DNA from: Algimonas ampicilliniresistens
GTDB lineage: Bacteria > Pseudomonadota > Alphaproteobacteria > Caulobacterales > Maricaulaceae
Reading direction: 5' to 3'
Assembly (NCBI RefSeq): GCF_030159955.1
Contig: NZ_BSNK01000001.1
Coordinates: 1,364,001-1,428,000, forward strand
DNA: 64,000 nucleotides
Below are positions 4,270 to 30,955 of this stretch, piece by piece. The position numbers and the translations under genes were made by a program. Below the pieces are notes generated by a model. The model was not told the DNA's origin. It saw only the letters and a list, made by a program, of their open reading frames with translations, and ran no database searches. The stretch's first letter is position 1. Each line of letters begins with the position of its first letter.

Positions 4270-4296
4270 TTGACAGAATCGGAACATTTGTGGAAC
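4270..4296 (+). promoter_or_regulatory. lexA promoter with alphaproteobacterial LexA (SOS) box
   Basis: A consensus -35 hexamer TTGACA lies at 4270-4275. The direct repeat GAAC (4282-4285), seven bases, GAAC (4293-4296) follows, which is exactly the GAAC-N7-GAAC operator known for alphaproteobacterial LexA. The box fills the space where RNA polymerase would contact the spacer and the weak -10 (GAACAG at 4293-4298 for a 17-nt spacer), so LexA binding should block its own transcription. A less perfect GAAT follows at 4303-4306, ten bases on. Confidence 0.9.
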
Positions 4297-4333
4297 AGAT
4301 CGGAATGTTGCTAGTTTGTTCAAGGATATTGTC

Positions 4334-4975
4334 ATGCTGACCAAGAAGCAAAGAGACTTGCTCCTGTTGATCGACACCCGCATCCACGCGGTTGGTGTTC
4401 CCCCCTCCTATGATGAAATGAAGGATGAGCTGGGCTTGGCGTCAAAGTCCGGCATCCACCGCCTGATCACGGCTTTGGAGGAACGCGGTTTTGTCAGGCG
4501 TCTACCGAACAAAGCCCGCGCGCTCGAAGTTATCAAAATGCCGGAAGGCTTACAGAGAGACGAACCGTTAGCGCCCATCCCTGCCAATGACAGTTTCGAG
4601 ATTCCCTTTGTTGGCAAGATCGCGGCCGGTCTGCCCATTTCAGCGATTGAGGATTCTTACAACCTCATGGCTGTTCCCCCCAGCATGCTTGGGAATGGCG
4701 ATCATTACGCGCTCGAAATCGAAGGCGAGTCGATGACGGGTGCCGGTATTATGGATGGTGACGTTGTTGTCGTTCGTAAGACCAATACCGCTCGCAATAA
4801 TGAAATTGTCGTCGCCCTTGTTGATCAAGAAGAAGCGACGCTCAAACGGATTTATACACGCGACGGCATGGTCGAGCTTATTGCCGACAATCCGGATTTC
4901 CCGACCCGGAGTTTCGGCCCAGATCGTGTCGAGGTTCAAGGAGTACTCGTCGGGCTCGTCCGCAACTACCAATAA
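4334..4975 (+). CDS. lexA: LexA, SOS regulon repressor and self-cleaving protease
   Basis: A 213-residue repressor. The winged helix-turn-helix DNA-binding domain spans about residues 1-68 ([17 protein letters not shown] recognition region), followed by a linker and an S24 peptidase domain. The self-cleavage bond is Ala98-Gly99 in KIAAGLPI. The catalytic pair is Ser133 ([11 protein letters not shown]) and Lys171 (EEATLKRIY). The ATG at 4334 is chosen over one 18 nt upstream because [13 protein letters not shown] is the normal family N-terminus. It is autoregulated through the box at 4282-4296 and very likely also controls the operon at 28.8 kb. It converges on comEC with one base between the stop codons. 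Confidence 0.97.
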
Positions 4976-24920: not shown

Positions 24921-25256
24921 ATGCAAGCCAGTTCTACAAACATTCTCTTTGTGTGCTCACGCAATCAGTGGCGAAGTCCCACAGCCGAACGCATTTATCG
25001 CAAAGATGATAGCCTCAATGTTCGCTCAGCCGGAGTCAGCGCATCGGCAAAAAGGCGGGTGTCAGAACGCGACCTTATCTGGGCTGATATAATCATCGCT
25101 ATGGACGCGTCGCACGCTGATCGATTGAGATCGATGATCAGACACACAAAAACGAACGCTAAACTCCATACACTCGATATACCGGACCTCTATCAATTCA
25201 TGGATCCAGAATTGATCAATTTATTGAAAAAAAGAATCGATCCCATTTTGCCTTAG
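24921..25256 (+). CDS. Low-molecular-weight protein-tyrosine-phosphatase-like protein
   Basis: A 111-residue protein of the small predicted tyrosine phosphatase group (COG4551 type, from memory). The P-loop ILFVCSRNQWRSPTAE has the CX5R(S/T) catalytic signature at about residues 10-17, and IPDLYQFMDPELI is the characteristic C-terminal segment. The ATG at 24921 (MQASSTNILFVC) is preceded by AAGG; an upstream in-frame ATG adds unlikely residues. It is divergent from rpsB and tail-to-tail with dnaE, with interlocked stop codons (TTAG). Substrate unknown. Confidence 0.8.
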   Translation: MQASSTNILFVCSRNQWRSPTAERIYRKDDSLNVRSAGVSASAKRRVSERDLIWADIIIAMDASHADRLRSMIRHTKTNAKLHTLDIPDLYQFMDPELINLLKKRIDPILP

Positions 25257-28200
25257 GCAGCGATCTCTTCAATCGTTTCAATCGACTGATTAGCTTTCAA
25301 TGCCTTGCGGATATCCGGATCGATCGCCCAACGCCCCTGCAATTGCCATCGCGCTTCACGGTCAGGCGTCAAAGGCGCTGACAGTTCAATAACCCCGGAC
25401 TGGAGATGTGGGGCATCCCTCAACTTACAGAGCATGGCTTCCAACTCATCTAGCGTGTTTGCATCAACGTCGCGGAGCCGAATACGCAAACCTCTCGGCG
25501 GGGTCGTGTCATCCTTATCTGAGCCAGACCCTGACAGGAGTTGCACGGATTGTGCAAAAAAGCGCATATCGCCGCCCTCACCCTCAACACGGACTTCGCA
25601 AATGACGGCATTTCCAACCGTCATCACATCACGTTTGGAGAAGAGTAAATCTTCGCGAACGAAAAGCTCATACTCGCCCGTTGGGTCAGACAGTCCGAGA
25701 TAGGCAAATCGTTTGCCGTGTTTGGAACTGCGTTCTTGGCGTCGCCGGACAATTCCGGCCATGCGGAAATTCTTCTTTCCGGACGCTGCCAGATCCTCCA
25801 ATTTATCGGAGAAGACCACCGTGTCGGTCTTGCCCTTCATATGCTCTTCGAGCGGATGCCCCCCTAGATAGAAACCGACCGCGCCAAACTCATGCTCTAA
25901 TCCTTCGACGGTTGACCAGTCCGACTGCACCACCAAATCTGGATCCGGAGTGGCCTCGGCAATACCGCCAAACAGATTGACCTGCGCAGACTCGCGTTCT
26001 TCAGCAGCCAGAGCCCCCACTTTTTGAAGCATGCCAGCAGACGCGAGCGCCGTCGCACGGGGGACGCCGAGACAATCGAACGCCCCTGCACGTGCCAAAT
26101 TCTCCATCGCGCGCTTATTGATGACACGCATGTCGACGCGTCGCGCGAAATCATAGATGTCAGCAAAAGGCCCGCCGCTTTCTCGAACCGAGACGACGTG
26201 TTTCATTGCCTCAAGACCGACATTTTTGAGGGCGCCCAAGGCGTAAAGCACTTTGCCATCCGCGACATCAAAATCCGCCATGGACCGATTAACGCAGGGC
26301 GGAAGGATTTCGACATCGATCCGTTTGGCCTCCTGGAAGAAAAAGGCGAGCTTCTCCGCCACACTGAGATCCAGGCTCATCACCGCCGCCATGAAATGCG
26401 CCGGATAGAGAGCCTTCAAATAGGCGGTCTGGAAGGAAATCAACGCATAGGCCGCGGCATGGGATTTGTTAAAGCCATAGCCCGCAAATTCATTGACCAG
26501 ATCGAAGATACCCGCCGCTTGATGGCGATCGACACCACGTTCGACCGCCCCATCGATAAATTTGTCTTTCTGGCGGTCCATTTCCGCCTGATCCTTCTTA
26601 CCCATAGCGCGGCGCAAAAGATCAGCATCGCCAAGCGTAAATCCCGACAGGATTTTGGCGATTTCCATCACCTGCTCCTGATAGATAATAATGCCGTACG
26701 TCTCCTCAAGCAGTTCTTTGAGGGCGGGATGTGGGTAATCGATCTCTTGGCGACCGAACTTTCGTTCGATGAAGTCCGGGATGTTGCGCATTGGGCCCGG
26801 GCGGTAGAGCGAGATAATCGCTGTCAGCTCTTCAATGGAATCCGGTTTTAGCTTGCGAAGCGCATCCCGCATGCCTGAACTTTCCAGTTGGAAAACCCCC
26901 GCCGTCAGCCCTTTAGCCAGAGGCTTATAAGCGTCGGGTTGATCCGGACTGATTGTGGCAAGATCAATATCAATCTTATCCTTACGGAGTAAGCGCAGGC
27001 ACCGATCAATAACGGTCAGCGTTTTGAGACCCAAAAAATCGAATTTTACCAGACCGGCCTTCTCAGCCCATTTCATCGTGAACTGGGTCGCAGGAACTTC
27101 TGAACGCGGATCACGGTAGAGCGGGACAAGCTCTGTTAGGGGTCGATCGCCGATGACAACGCCCGCCGCATGAGTAGAGGCGTTCCGGTAGAGGCCTTCA
27201 AGGGACAATGCGGTGTTGAGGAGGCGTTTGACTTTTGGGTCAGAACGCCGGGCATCCTGCAGAGACGATTCCATATTGATCGCCTGTTGTAAGGTCACCG
27301 GACTGGCTGGATTGTTCGGAACCATCTTGGCCAGACGGTCAACTTGACCGAGCGGCATCTGCATGACCCGACCCACATCGCGCACAACCGCGCGCGCTTG
27401 CAACGTTCCGAATGTAATGATCTGGGCGACCTGCCCGTCACCATATTTGGTTCGGACATAGTCGATTACCTCGCCGCGACGTTCTTGACAGAAATCGATA
27501 TCGAAATCGGGCATAGAGACCCGTTCTGGGTTCAGGAACCGCTCAAACAGAAGGCCATATCGGAGTGGGTCAAGATCGGTGATGGTCAAAGCCCACGCCA
27601 CAACAGAGCCGGCACCAGACCCCCGGCCCGGCCCAACTGGAATCTCTTGTTCTTTCGCCCATTTGATGAAGTCGGAAACGATCAAGAAATAGCCCGGAAA
27701 ACCCATTTCCGTAATAATGCCGATTTCATAATCGAGGCGATCGAAATAGGCCTCGCGCGGTTCTGCCAGTTCTACGGCGTCTAACCGAGCTTCAAGCCCC
27801 GCCCGGGCCGCGTCTGCTAAAATCTGGTCTTCAGATTGCGACCCATCTCCGAAGTTCGGCAAGATAGGCGGCCGCTTGGGAGATCGAAACGCACAGCGTT
27901 GGGCAATGACGAGCGTATTGAGGATCGCTTCAGGTATGTCCTCAAACAGAGCCGTCATCTCTTCCGTCGATTTGAGATAGTGACGCGGCGTCAGTTTACG
28001 GCGATCCTGCTCCAGCACATAAGAGCCCTCACCCATGGCAAGCAAAACGTCATGGGCATCATACATTTCAGGCCCAAGGAAGTAAGGTTCGTTGGTCGCC
28101 ACCACCGGAACATCCAATCGGTAGGCCATCTCAATCAAAGCCGGTTCGACCTGAGCCTGTTGCGGCAGACCGTGACGTTGCAATTCGATGTACAGACGGT

Positions 28201-28708
28201 CCGGGAACAGAGCCGTCAGCCTGTTTAACCAGCGCTCCGCTTCTTCCGGACGTCCAGACGCGAGCAACTTGTCTAAAGCGCCATCTGCCCCGCCCGTCAG
28301 AGCAATCACCCCGTCCGTGCGCCCTTCAAAGGCACTGATTTTCACATGGGGGAGATCTGTCGCATCGACGTCGAGATAGGCCGCCGAAGATAGCGCCATC
28401 AGATTACTATAGCCGAGCTCATTCTGAGCCAGCAGGACAATCGTCCCGTCGGGCTCGCGGCGCAACTGACCGGGCTGCCGTTCACCTTCCAGATCGACCG
28501 ACAAAGTGACCCCTATAATGGGCTGCACACCGGCACTGCTCATTACTTCGGAAAATTCCAATGCTCCGCAAAGATTGTTGGTGTCTGTGATGGCGATGGC
28601 AGGCTGGCGATATTTCGCCACACACGTCGCCGTTTCCTTCATCTTCAGCGCGCCCTCAAGCATCGAATAGGGAGAGCGCATCCGCAGATGAACGAAATCA
28701 CGAACCAT
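25253..28708 (-). CDS. dnaE: DnaE, DNA polymerase III alpha subunit
   Basis: Replicative polymerase subunit of 1151 residues. The PHP domain is at the N-terminus (FVHLRMRSPYSMLEGALKMK). The C-family polymerase core carries VGPGRGSGAGSVVAWAL and the catalytic aspartates in MPDFDIDFCQERRGEV (about residues 399-406), plus STHAAGVVIGD. A tandem HhH and an OB-fold follow (MAGIVRRRQERSSKHGKRFA). Length and motifs fit housekeeping DnaE1 rather than the mutagenic ImuC/DnaE2. The ATG lies 9 nt after a 31-codon membrane peptide gene, and the nearest promoter carries a LexA box, suggesting SOS-boosted expression. Confidence 0.96.
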   Translation of the reverse strand: MVRDFVHLRMRSPYSMLEGALKMKETATCVAKYRQPAIAITDTNNLCGALEFSEVMSSAGVQPIIGVTLSVDLEGERQPGQLRREPDGTIVLLAQNELGYSNLMALSSAAYLDVDATDLPHVKISAFEGRTDGVIALTGGADGALDKLLASGRPEEAERWLNRLTALFPDRLYIELQRHGLPQQAQVEPALIEMAYRLDVPVVATNEPYFLGPEMYDAHDVLLAMGEGSYVLEQDRRKLTPRHYLKSTEEMTALFEDIPEAILNTLVIAQRCAFRSPKRPPILPNFGDGSQSEDQILADAARAGLEARLDAVELAEPREAYFDRLDYEIGIITEMGFPGYFLIVSDFIKWAKEQEIPVGPGRGSGAGSVVAWALTITDLDPLRYGLLFERFLNPERVSMPDFDIDFCQERRGEVIDYVRTKYGDGQVAQIITFGTLQARAVVRDVGRVMQMPLGQVDRLAKMVPNNPASPVTLQQAINMESSLQDARRSDPKVKRLLNTALSLEGLYRNASTHAAGVVIGDRPLTELVPLYRDPRSEVPATQFTMKWAEKAGLVKFDFLGLKTLTVIDRCLRLLRKDKIDIDLATISPDQPDAYKPLAKGLTAGVFQLESSGMRDALRKLKPDSIEELTAIISLYRPGPMRNIPDFIERKFGRQEIDYPHPALKELLEETYGIIIYQEQVMEIAKILSGFTLGDADLLRRAMGKKDQAEMDRQKDKFIDGAVERGVDRHQAAGIFDLVNEFAGYGFNKSHAAAYALISFQTAYLKALYPAHFMAAVMSLDLSVAEKLAFFFQEAKRIDVEILPPCVNRSMADFDVADGKVLYALGALKNVGLEAMKHVVSVRESGGPFADIYDFARRVDMRVINKRAMENLARAGAFDCLGVPRATALASAGMLQKVGALAAEERESAQVNLFGGIAEATPDPDLVVQSDWSTVEGLEHEFGAVGFYLGGHPLEEHMKGKTDTVVFSDKLEDLAASGKKNFRMAGIVRRRQERSSKHGKRFAYLGLSDPTGEYELFVREDLLFSKRDVMTVGNAVICEVRVEGEGGDMRFFAQSVQLLSGSGSDKDDTTPPRGLRIRLRDVDANTLDELEAMLCKLRDAPHLQSGVIELSAPLTPDREARWQLQGRWAIDPDIRKALKANQSIETIEEIAA

Positions 28709-28717
28709 ATGTCTGAT

Positions 28718-28813
28718 CTAGCCTCCAATCACCATCATCCAGACCGACATCATGGTCACGAATGCTGCCAAAACGATAGCGGCTCCAAGGTCCTGCGCGA
28801 ACTGCTTCATCAT
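28718..28813 (-). CDS. SOS-controlled 31-residue single-span membrane peptide, SidA-like candidate
   Basis: A short gene read ATGATGAAGCAG… from 28813 to the TAG at 28718. The predicted peptide begins MMKQFAQDLG and continues with an uninterrupted hydrophobic helix of about 20 residues (AAIVLAAFVTMM, then a VW and MMVI stretch) ending in Gly-Gly. This is a cytoplasmic N-terminal turn plus one membrane span. AAGGGG lies 7-8 nt before the first ATG. A LexA box and a TTGACT -35 lie 40-65 nt upstream, and dnaE starts 9 nt downstream. Caulobacter SidA is a 29-residue, LexA-controlled inner-membrane inhibitor of division. Size, topology and regulation match; homology is inference. Confidence 0.75.
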   Translation of the reverse strand: MMKQFAQDLGAAIVLAAFVTMMSVWMMVIGG

Positions 28814-28853
28814 GGTTATCCCCTTTTCTCTTCCTATGTTGCTACTTTGTTCT

Positions 28854-28877
28854 GTTCTTACTTTGTTCTAGAGTCAA
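28854..28877 (-). promoter_or_regulatory. LexA (SOS) box and promoter of the membrane peptide-dnaE operon
   Basis: Reading the minus strand, TTGACT (28877-28872) is followed three bases later by GAAC (28868-28865), seven bases (AAAGTAA) and GAAC (28857-28854). This is an exact GAAC-N7-GAAC alphaproteobacterial LexA operator, with one more GAAC overlapping at 28852-28849. The layout copies that of lexA: a TTGAC(A/T) -35 with the operator filling the spacer and -10. It lies 41 nt upstream of the 31-codon gene. The divergent permease gene starts about 100 nt away on the other side. Confidence 0.88.
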
Positions 28878-28971
28878 GCGTGTAGGAATAATTTCCCTGA
28901 TTCGCAGGCACGAGATGTGGATAAGGCGGGGTGACCTTGCCTTTATGGGCTCTGCGGCTCACGGATGTGGG

Positions 28972-30279
28972 ATGAGCGTCAACTTTCGTCCCCGAACTGC
29001 AACGGCCATTATTGTTGCGAATATGATTGGGACGGGTGTCTTTACGTCTCTCGGCTTTCAACTGCTCGATATCGGATCCCCGTTCGCCATTCTGATGCTT
29101 TGGGCGATTGGTGGGCTGGCGGCTTTGTGCGGCGCTCTCAGTTATGCGGAACTAGGCACGCGATTGCCCCGGTCAGGCGGAGAGTATAATTTTCTCGGCA
29201 AAATCTATCATCCGGCGGCTGGGTTTGTGTCGGGGTGGATATCGGCGACGATTGGATTTGCCGCTCCCATTGCGGCGGTAGCCCTCGCCTTTTCCAAATA
29301 TACCGCGGCTATTCTGCCGTCCGGCCTCTCCCCGACAGCTCAAACGGGACTGGCTTTGGCGCTCGTCCTGTCGATGGCAGGGCTTCACGCTCGCTCGCGC
29401 CGGTTGTCTGGGGGGTCCCAGACCGCGCTGACAGCCGTCAAAGTCGGGTTGATTTTGGCGTTCTGTCTTGCAGGGCTCTTCATTGTCCCTGACCCGCAAC
29501 CTGTCAGCTTCTTACCGAAAGCGGGGGACGCCAGCGTTCTTACCTCTCCGGCTTTTGCGATTGCACTGATCTATGTGTCCTACGCCTATACGGGCTGGAA
29601 TGCGGCGACCTATATATCGGGGGAACTAAAAGACCCCCAGCACTCCCTGCCCCGCATCCTGATCAGCGGAACCTTGCTTGTCGCAGGCCTCTATATCCTC
29701 CTTCACGTCGTCTTCCTTCGCGCAGCGCCGATGGACGCGATGCGCGGACAAGTCGAGATCGGCTATATTGCAGCGCGGGGTATCTTCGGCGATGACGGCG
29801 GCAGGATCGCAGGCGGAATGCTCGCCCTACTTCTGATCAGCTCAGTCTCGGCGATGACCTTGGCTGGACCGCGCGCCTTGCAAGCCATTGGTGAGGACTT
29901 CCCGGCGTTGCGTTGGCTATCCCGGACCAACAAAGATCAAGTCCCGAGAAATGCCGTTCTATTTCAATCAGCTGTGGCGGGTTTCTTCGTCATAACCCAA
30001 AGCTTTGAAACGATTATTGTGTTTGCGGGGAGCTTGCTGGCCTTCAACAGCCTGCTTGCAGTTATTGGTTTATTTGTTCTGAGGCGGCAGCAACCAGACG
30101 ATGATATTCCATTCCGAGTGCCGCTCTACCCTATCGTCCCGCTGATCTATCTGACAATCACAGCGTTCACGCTCGTCTTTGTTGTCGCAACCAAGCCTGT
30201 CACGGCATTAGCGGCTGCGATTTTAATCTCGGTTGGTTTAGTTTTCTATGCGGTCAGTAGGAGATTGGAGCGGGCGTAA
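28972..30279 (+). CDS. APC-superfamily amino acid permease
   Basis: Inner-membrane transporter of about 435 residues with roughly twelve hydrophobic spans. The first-span motif is ANMIGTGVFTSLGFQ, the glycine-rich unwound helix typical of amino acid-polyamine-organocation carriers. Further family segments are SYAELGTRLPRSGGEYNFLG and SYAYTGWNAATYISGELKDP. The substrate cannot be assigned; it resembles cationic or neutral amino acid exchangers. The ATG at 28972 (MSVNFRPRTATAI) is preferred, with alternatives at 28945 and 28915. It is divergent from the SOS-controlled unit, and its 3' end overlaps lolD tail-to-tail by 26 nt. Confidence 0.85.
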   Translation: MSVNFRPRTATAIIVANMIGTGVFTSLGFQLLDIGSPFAILMLWAIGGLAALCGALSYAELGTRLPRSGGEYNFLGKIYHPAAGFVSGWISATIGFAAPIAAVALAFSKYTAAILPSGLSPTAQTGLALALVLSMAGLHARSRRLSGGSQTALTAVKVGLILAFCLAGLFIVPDPQPVSFLPKAGDASVLTSPAFAIALIYVSYAYTGWNAATYISGELKDPQHSLPRILISGTLLVAGLYILLHVVFLRAAPMDAMRGQVEIGYIAARGIFGDDGGRIAGGMLALLLISSVSAMTLAGPRALQAIGEDFPALRWLSRTNKDQVPRNAVLFQSAVAGFFVITQSFETIIVFAGSLLAFNSLLAVIGLFVLRRQQPDDDIPFRVPLYPIVPLIYLTITAFTLVFVVATKPVTALAAAILISVGLVFYAVSRRLERA

Positions 30280-30955
30280 ACGGGACGATGAGACCTTCAC
30301 GCACCGTCAGCAAACGATCCATATAGCTTGCCAATTGCATATTATGCGTAGCGACCAGAGCTGCGACGCCTTCCTGACGGGTGAGCTGGTAGAGTTGGTC
30401 GAACACGACCGCGCTCGTCGCAGGATCAAGATTGCCCGTCGGTTCGTCCGCGAGCAGGATCTGGGGTCGGTTGGCAAGCGCCCGCGCAATGGCAACCCGT
30501 TGCTGTTCCCCGCCGGACATCTGGCTTGGACGATGGGTTAGCCGTTCCGCCAGTCCCATCGCAGTCAACAATCGACGGGACTCAGCGCGCGCGGCCCGTG
30601 ACGTCTGGCCCGCAATCATTTGCGGGACCATGGCGTTTTCTTCTGCTGTGAATTCCTTCTGGAGATGGTGGAATTGATAGACCATGCCGATCCGTTGGCG
30701 GCGAATGGCCGTCCGCTCATCATCAGACAGCTTCAAACATTCTTTGCCATTGATGAACACTTCACCCGCATTCGGTTTTTCAAGCAAACCAGCTGCGTGT
30801 AGCAAGGTCGATTTACCCGAGCCCGAAGGTCCGATCAGTCCGACCATCTCACCAGGGAAGATATCGATATCTGCACCAGCCAGCACCTTTAACATGCCGC
30901 CGCCCGACTTGTAGGCGCGGTGCAGGTTTCGAACAGAGAGAACCGGCCTAATCAT
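30254..30955 (-). CDS. lolD: LolD, lipoprotein-releasing ABC transporter ATPase
   Basis: ATPase of the complex that extracts outer-membrane lipoproteins from the inner membrane. In 233 residues it shows Walker A GPSGSGKST, ABC signature MSGGEQQRVAIARAL, Walker B ILLADEPTGNLD and H-loop ATHN. It starts within the last codons of lolC (8-nt overlap), so the two are coupled. The 3' end overlaps the convergent permease gene by 26 nt. Confidence 0.95.
   Translation of the reverse strand: MIRPVLSVRNLHRAYKSGGGMLKVLAGADIDIFPGEMVGLIGPSGSGKSTLLHAAGLLEKPNAGEVFINGKECLKLSDDERTAIRRQRIGMVYQFHHLQKEFTAEENAMVPQMIAGQTSRAARAESRRLLTAMGLAERLTHRPSQMSGGEQQRVAIARALANRPQILLADEPTGNLDPATSAVVFDQLYQLTRQEGVAALVATHNMQLASYMDRLLTVREGLIVPFTPAPISY

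Follow-up and report, generated by a model that had tools for sequence, protein, structure and literature searches.

To our knowledge, the inhibitors that halt cell division during the SOS response have for the most part been identified in only a few model bacteria, and since they evolve fast, sequence comparison seldom reveals them. The closest described system is SidA from Caulobacter crescentus, encoded by CCNA_02004 according to the accessible portion of PMC10769358. The available text of PMC4211646 describes SidA as a 29-aa inner-membrane inhibitor that binds FtsW and is proposed to stabilise FtsW/FtsI/FtsN in an inactive form, and reports that changes at F145 and A246 of C. crescentus FtsW suppress SidA. 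The same bacterium possesses DidA, a second small inhibitor of division that also has a single span and acts on FtsW/I/N; it differs from the peptide studied here in its length of 71 aa, its independence of SOS, its binding to FtsN and its control by DriD (PMC4211646, same portion). YneA from Bacillus and SosA from Staphylococcus are SOS-induced membrane division inhibitors as well, and FtsW is the reported target of YneA (PMC13396833 and PMC6851548, both in excerpt). Judging from their description, however, these are unrelated Gram-positive proteins, and yneA is so grouped in the available text of PMC4211646.

Within a 64,000-nt stretch of Algimonas ampicilliniresistens DNA (hereafter the window), an initial annotation had pointed out a 31-codon, ATG-started reading frame with a Shine-Dalgarno site, a hydrophobic core and an exact GAAC-N7-GAAC box upstream. 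All of these elements were found again. The peptide gene (MMKQFAQDLGAAIVLAAFVTMMSVWMMVIGG), read directly on the minus strand at 28718..28813, comprises 31 codons, or 30 when counted from the second codon, which is likewise ATG and at the equivalent of which numerous relatives start. A Shine-Dalgarno-like AGGGG, also read directly (28820..28824, minus strand), is separated from the first ATG by 6 nt, and a G-rich stretch is found 5' of the ATG in most members of the genus. The 31-aa product carries one predicted membrane span with a best 15-residue Kyte-Doolittle mean of 2.19. The predicted LexA box of the GAAC-N7-GAAC pattern (GAACAAAGTAAGAAC; 28854..28868, minus strand) is located 40 nt upstream of the ATG, and just upstream of it lies TTGAC (28873..28877, minus strand), a putative −35 element. 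Since TTGAC stands at the same place, shortly 5' of the box, in most of the 23 loci inspected, the box is probably situated within or beside a promoter. A gap of 9 nt separates the stop codon of the peptide from the start of dnaE (25253..28708, minus strand; NCBIfam NF004226, 1386 bits versus a cut-off of 1002), which encodes the replicative DNA polymerase III alpha and is followed on the same strand by rpsB, tsf and pyrH.

The 31-codon frame is clearly a real gene whose amino acid sequence is under purifying selection, and this holds for this frame only. For 15 genus members and 28 common codons (39 closer pairs, which are non-independent), the pooled pS amounts to 0.519 and the pooled pN to 0.093, i. 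e. a pN/pS of 0.18; read in the alternative frames, the same DNA gives 1.64 and 4.05. Loss of the frame in close relatives, named in the initial annotation as a possible refutation, was not what was found. Among 24 relatives, Trp25 is invariant and Asp8, Val14, Phe18, Val28 and Gly31 are near-invariant; a conserved-residue face on the helix was not detectable by permutation (p 0.43). A profile of the window's group (24 sequences, hereafter A1), which like that of a sister group (13 sequences, A3) was assembled by hand, matches the own genome at one place, namely this gene, with 62 bits. Pfam gave no match for six relatives of the peptide; its single match for the peptide itself, to diacylglycerol kinase, was sub-threshold (E 0.03, 14.6 versus 22.3 bits) and was rejected as a membrane-helix coincidence. 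With dnaE only 9 nt away, the frame could conceivably be a leader, i. e. an upstream ORF that acts merely in cis and tunes translation or transcription of dnaE, and the GGAGG in its last two codons could then be the ribosome site of dnaE. The selection on amino acids and the conserved Trp, Asp, Phe and Gly residues make such a role very improbable, as does the distance to dnaE, which is not fixed (5–9 nt in the closest relatives, 146–217 nt in several Maricaulis and about 300 nt in the genome G047). In addition, curated SidA, which works as a protein in C. crescentus according to the available text of PMC4211646, has the same locus as detailed below.

In contrast to the frame, the box does not stand out by its count. 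Three GAAC-N7-GAAC matches occur in the window versus 2.09 expected, and the genome-wide number of 87 (53+34) shows no excess over the 91 (54+37) matches of a reversed-pattern control. The notion that the box is significant on its own was hence rejected, as both counts are at chance level, and its significance derives from the joint conservation of box and single-span peptide upstream of dnaE. Besides the box discussed here, the window contains one inside another gene (11965) and one before lexA, the presumed regulator (4334..4975, plus strand; frame 4316–4975 with the ATG at 4334, TIGR00498 over cut-off at 4337–4969). The latter box, at 4282–4296, lies about 37 nt before the lexA ATG. Repair-type genes were found at nine of 17 boxes of the own genome, which had been chosen by eye among the 87 for AT-rich spacers. 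Five of these nine sites belong to recA, uvrA/ssb, comM (YifB), radA and a gene for a radical-SAM repair protein; the other four lie at two genes resembling polymerase IV, at an imuA/imuB-like pair and at an endonuclease III-like gene, and the names towards the end of this list derive from sub-cut-off matches.

The initial annotation had suggested looking upstream of dnaE in related bacteria, and this search was productive both within and beyond the order. The genus comprises 19 members including the window's own; four gave no dnaE match, and all 15 others carry a box and a single-span peptide upstream of dnaE. From 61 genomes of the order that were searched, dnaE was found in 56. Box and frame are both present in 42 of these, including two (L039 and L098) in which the longest frame begins before the box, so that an inner ATG behind the box was used; six genomes have the frame without an exact box, two the box without the frame, and six neither. 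A single-span frame thus precedes dnaE in 48 of the 56 genomes, compared with 8.2 expected from dinucleotide shuffles. That frame and box are both products of chance, as the unremarkable number of GAAC-N7-GAAC matches might suggest, has next to no probability given this conservation, the coding selection and the shared locus with SidA, and was rejected on the pN/pS ratio and the 48 of 56 versus 8.2. One family, f2, deviates in all six genomes examined (L097, L103, L104, L105, L107 and L108), which contain neither the peptide nor a GAAC-N7-GAAC box and retain lolC-lolD-dnaE. This state reflects either a clean loss or the use of another division inhibitor. Two further genomes, G020 (locus L059) and G059 (locus L087), have a box before dnaE and no single-span frame between the two, a constellation that possibly places dnaE alone under SOS control. 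In the six f2 genomes as well as in G020 and G059, the A1 model detected no convincing copy elsewhere (best E 0.48).

For the view beyond the order, the sample numbered 134 genomes, of which 132 came from other orders; dnaE was obtained from 127, and the best-scoring 89 of these 127 were examined. A box within 450 nt of dnaE together with a single-span frame was found in 16 of these best 89, with homology established for not every one of the 16. The frame starts with ATG in 15 of these cases and with another start codon in L142; named records from Parvibaculum and Rhodobiaceae (L073, L076 and L078) are among them. A frame was present in 14 of the 73 box-less genomes, which is about the chance level (13.9 expected per 89), and the association of frame and box has a Fisher p of 2.7e-8.

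The curated SidA model NF033228 (cut-off 35 bits) leads to the same place. Three 29-residue peptides encoded upstream of dnaE in family f3 score over its cut-off, and of the 61 genomes, three contain a match over the cut-off, each time adjoining dnaE. In a positional sample of 40 genomes of family f3, which bears curated SidA, 25 genomes exceed the cut-off, and in every one of the 25 the match immediately precedes dnaE, as do 31 of 32 matches at E≤0.001. Hence, the SidA locus is the leader position of dnaE, and the gene in the window occupies it. Eight f3 genomes with dnaE yielded no NF033228 match at E≤0.001; six of them (G038, G042, G058, G203, G216 and G224) have a SidA-like frame at the same place, and the stretches fetched from G205 and G206 contain none. 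An exact box was present in 16 of 33 short stretches fetched from the SidA family, and among 14 named control genomes, Caulobacter vibrioides is the only one over the NF033228 cut-off. SidA-like peptides (M...HNxLSFAAVxxFV...) that NF033228 misses are encoded upstream of dnaE at the f3 loci L270, L273 and L274, so that the model is incomplete even for the family in which it was curated to find SidA.

The wider surroundings are shared in part. A lolD-like gene is located at 30254..30955 on the minus strand (its best NCBIfam hit is LolD with 248 bits, short of the cut-off of 308), and lolC-lolD-peptide-dnaE are contiguous in the genus members G015 and G018 as well as in the SidA-bearing G046. 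This is the only one of three SidA-bearing genomes compared in which lolC-lolD lies beside SidA; in G050, lolD is about 2.8 kb away, and the stretch fetched from G054 contains no lolD. In the window, unlike next to SidA, a divergent amino-acid permease gene (28915–30279, plus strand; Pfam AA_permease_2) is inserted between the peptide gene and lolD. It is present in many, though not all, relatives, and in genomes without it lolD is the upstream neighbour of the peptide. Since the permease ATG is just 46 nt away from the predicted LexA box, LexA might touch this gene, too.

At the sequence level, the relation to SidA is visible only between groups. NF033228 does not match the window peptide at E≤1 or, when run over the genome, the position of its gene at E≤10, and it matches none of the 24 relatives in A1. 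We therefore do not class the peptide as an NF033228 equivalog, but solely as an ortholog within a SidA group of wider scope, and being missed by the curated model, it may indeed be undescribed in this lineage, as the initial annotation had supposed. Comparing A1 by hhalign with an alignment of 32 distinct SidA sequences gave a score of 27.2, which none of 200 column shuffles reached (maximum 18.9); A3 scored 30.0 (shuffle maximum 20.7) and A1 plus A3 32.0 (17.8). The match between A1 and SidA spans only the first 22 residues, and the C-terminal part differs. When the SidA profile was applied to the window peptide alone, it scored 0.7 bits and fell inside the decoys (best decoy 6.1). As the single peptide is not separable from decoys, the link to SidA needs profiles or intermediate sequences. 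In a ranking with the combined A1 and A3 profile, five of six f3 SidA-family peptides come out ahead of all 261 single-span decoys, among which one true peptide (L124) was still included, rendering the control slightly harsher. Conversely, with a deep SidA profile, the best decoy is outscored by three of 24 A1 sequences, six of 13 A3 sequences and five of 23 further peptides encoded upstream of dnaE. A peptide found in another order (L197) bridges the two groups, as it scores with either of them.

The selection on the coding frame, the conservation of the box, the locus shared with curated SidA and the profile similarity together lead us to regard the gene with good confidence as a divergent ortholog of sidA, the gene for the SOS-induced division inhibitor of Caulobacter, whose product would act at FtsW/FtsI/FtsN here as well. 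The resemblance to SidA, which the initial annotation had drawn by analogy, thereby gains support from the shared position and the profiles. Like SidA (29 aa, as given in the available text of PMC4211646), the peptide is short with its 30–31 aa, has one span and begins with a short basic/acidic N-terminus; both genes have a box of the GAAC-N7-GAAC type, and are situated directly upstream of dnaE, and the profiles of their groups resemble each other across the first 22 residues. The two differ in that the window peptide stays below NF033228 detection and in the C-terminal half, which reads WMMVxGG versus CSxAxLVx in SidA. TisB is a small single-span peptide under SOS control, and a membrane-disturbing peptide of the TisB/DinQ sort (DinQ: PMC3567139, in excerpt) would be alike in size, topology and SOS control without inhibiting the divisome. 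This identity is very unlikely in view of the locus and profile shared with SidA. Furthermore, no Rfam family was found within 28500–29100 at E≤1 and accordingly no known antisense RNA, and the tandem arrangement with an essential gene would suit a peptide of low general toxicity.

For a sidA ortholog, the following course of events can be envisaged. LexA bound to the box would repress the promoter until DNA damage causes RecA-stimulated cleavage of LexA, upon which the promoter would be released and the peptide of about 30 residues be made. It would then insert into the inner membrane as a single helix and, if its target corresponds to that in C. crescentus, keep the late divisome FtsW/FtsI/FtsN inactive, so that cells would elongate without dividing until repair is complete. 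The host genome encodes two FtsW/RodA-type proteins, the better of which scores 332 bits versus a cut-off of 337.5, and one SPOR-domain protein, an inventory that, as far as the genome tells, would be permissive for a SidA-like action and does not prove it. The better-scoring of the two FtsW/RodA-type proteins has F and A at the equivalents of C. crescentus F145 and A246, a numbering that was checked on G046, where both residues fall exactly at 145 and 246; since FtsW proteins in general probably conserve these sites, the agreement says little. A sidA ortholog might also inhibit division through a shifted partner, for instance FtsN or FtsI alone or an elongation factor. The deviating C-terminal half and the alignment limited to the first 22 residues are compatible with this, and DidA attains the same outcome via FtsN in C. 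crescentus (PMC4211646, available text). We consider such a shift unlikely; the FtsW sites tied to SidA suppression are unchanged in the host.

The 9-nt distance suggests that the transcript starting at the putative LexA-controlled promoter probably carries dnaE too. On a larger scale, SidA may belong to an old alphaproteobacterial cassette of LexA box, SidA-type peptide and dnaE, in which one SOS-controlled transcript would both arrest division and supply the replicative polymerase. This cassette would have been lost repeatedly, and it would have been overlooked because the gene has only about 30 codons and the curated model is too narrow. The 42 of 56 genomes in the order, the 16 of the best 89 outside and the bridging peptides speak for this scenario, to which we give an even chance; that dnaE is induced jointly with the peptide is a guess. 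In the literature searched, no account of SidA outside Caulobacter or of its link to dnaE was found, though the original SidA paper from 2011 may have it; the regular pairing of SidA with dnaE and the spread beyond the curated family hence seem to be new. SidA-type genes whose shortness and divergence defeat present models can be sought by a simple criterion of position, namely the dnaE locus with its LexA box. Should the wider group be confirmed, the control of division after DNA damage becomes directly testable in many Alphaproteobacteria, and a possible SOS-dependent increase of the replicative polymerase becomes a concrete question.

As a further observation on the arrangement of these genes, lexA is located about 24 kb from dnaE in the window. 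By gene number, the two are near each other in C. crescentus as well, where the accessible portion of PMC1839093 lists dnaE as CC1926 and lexA as CC1902.
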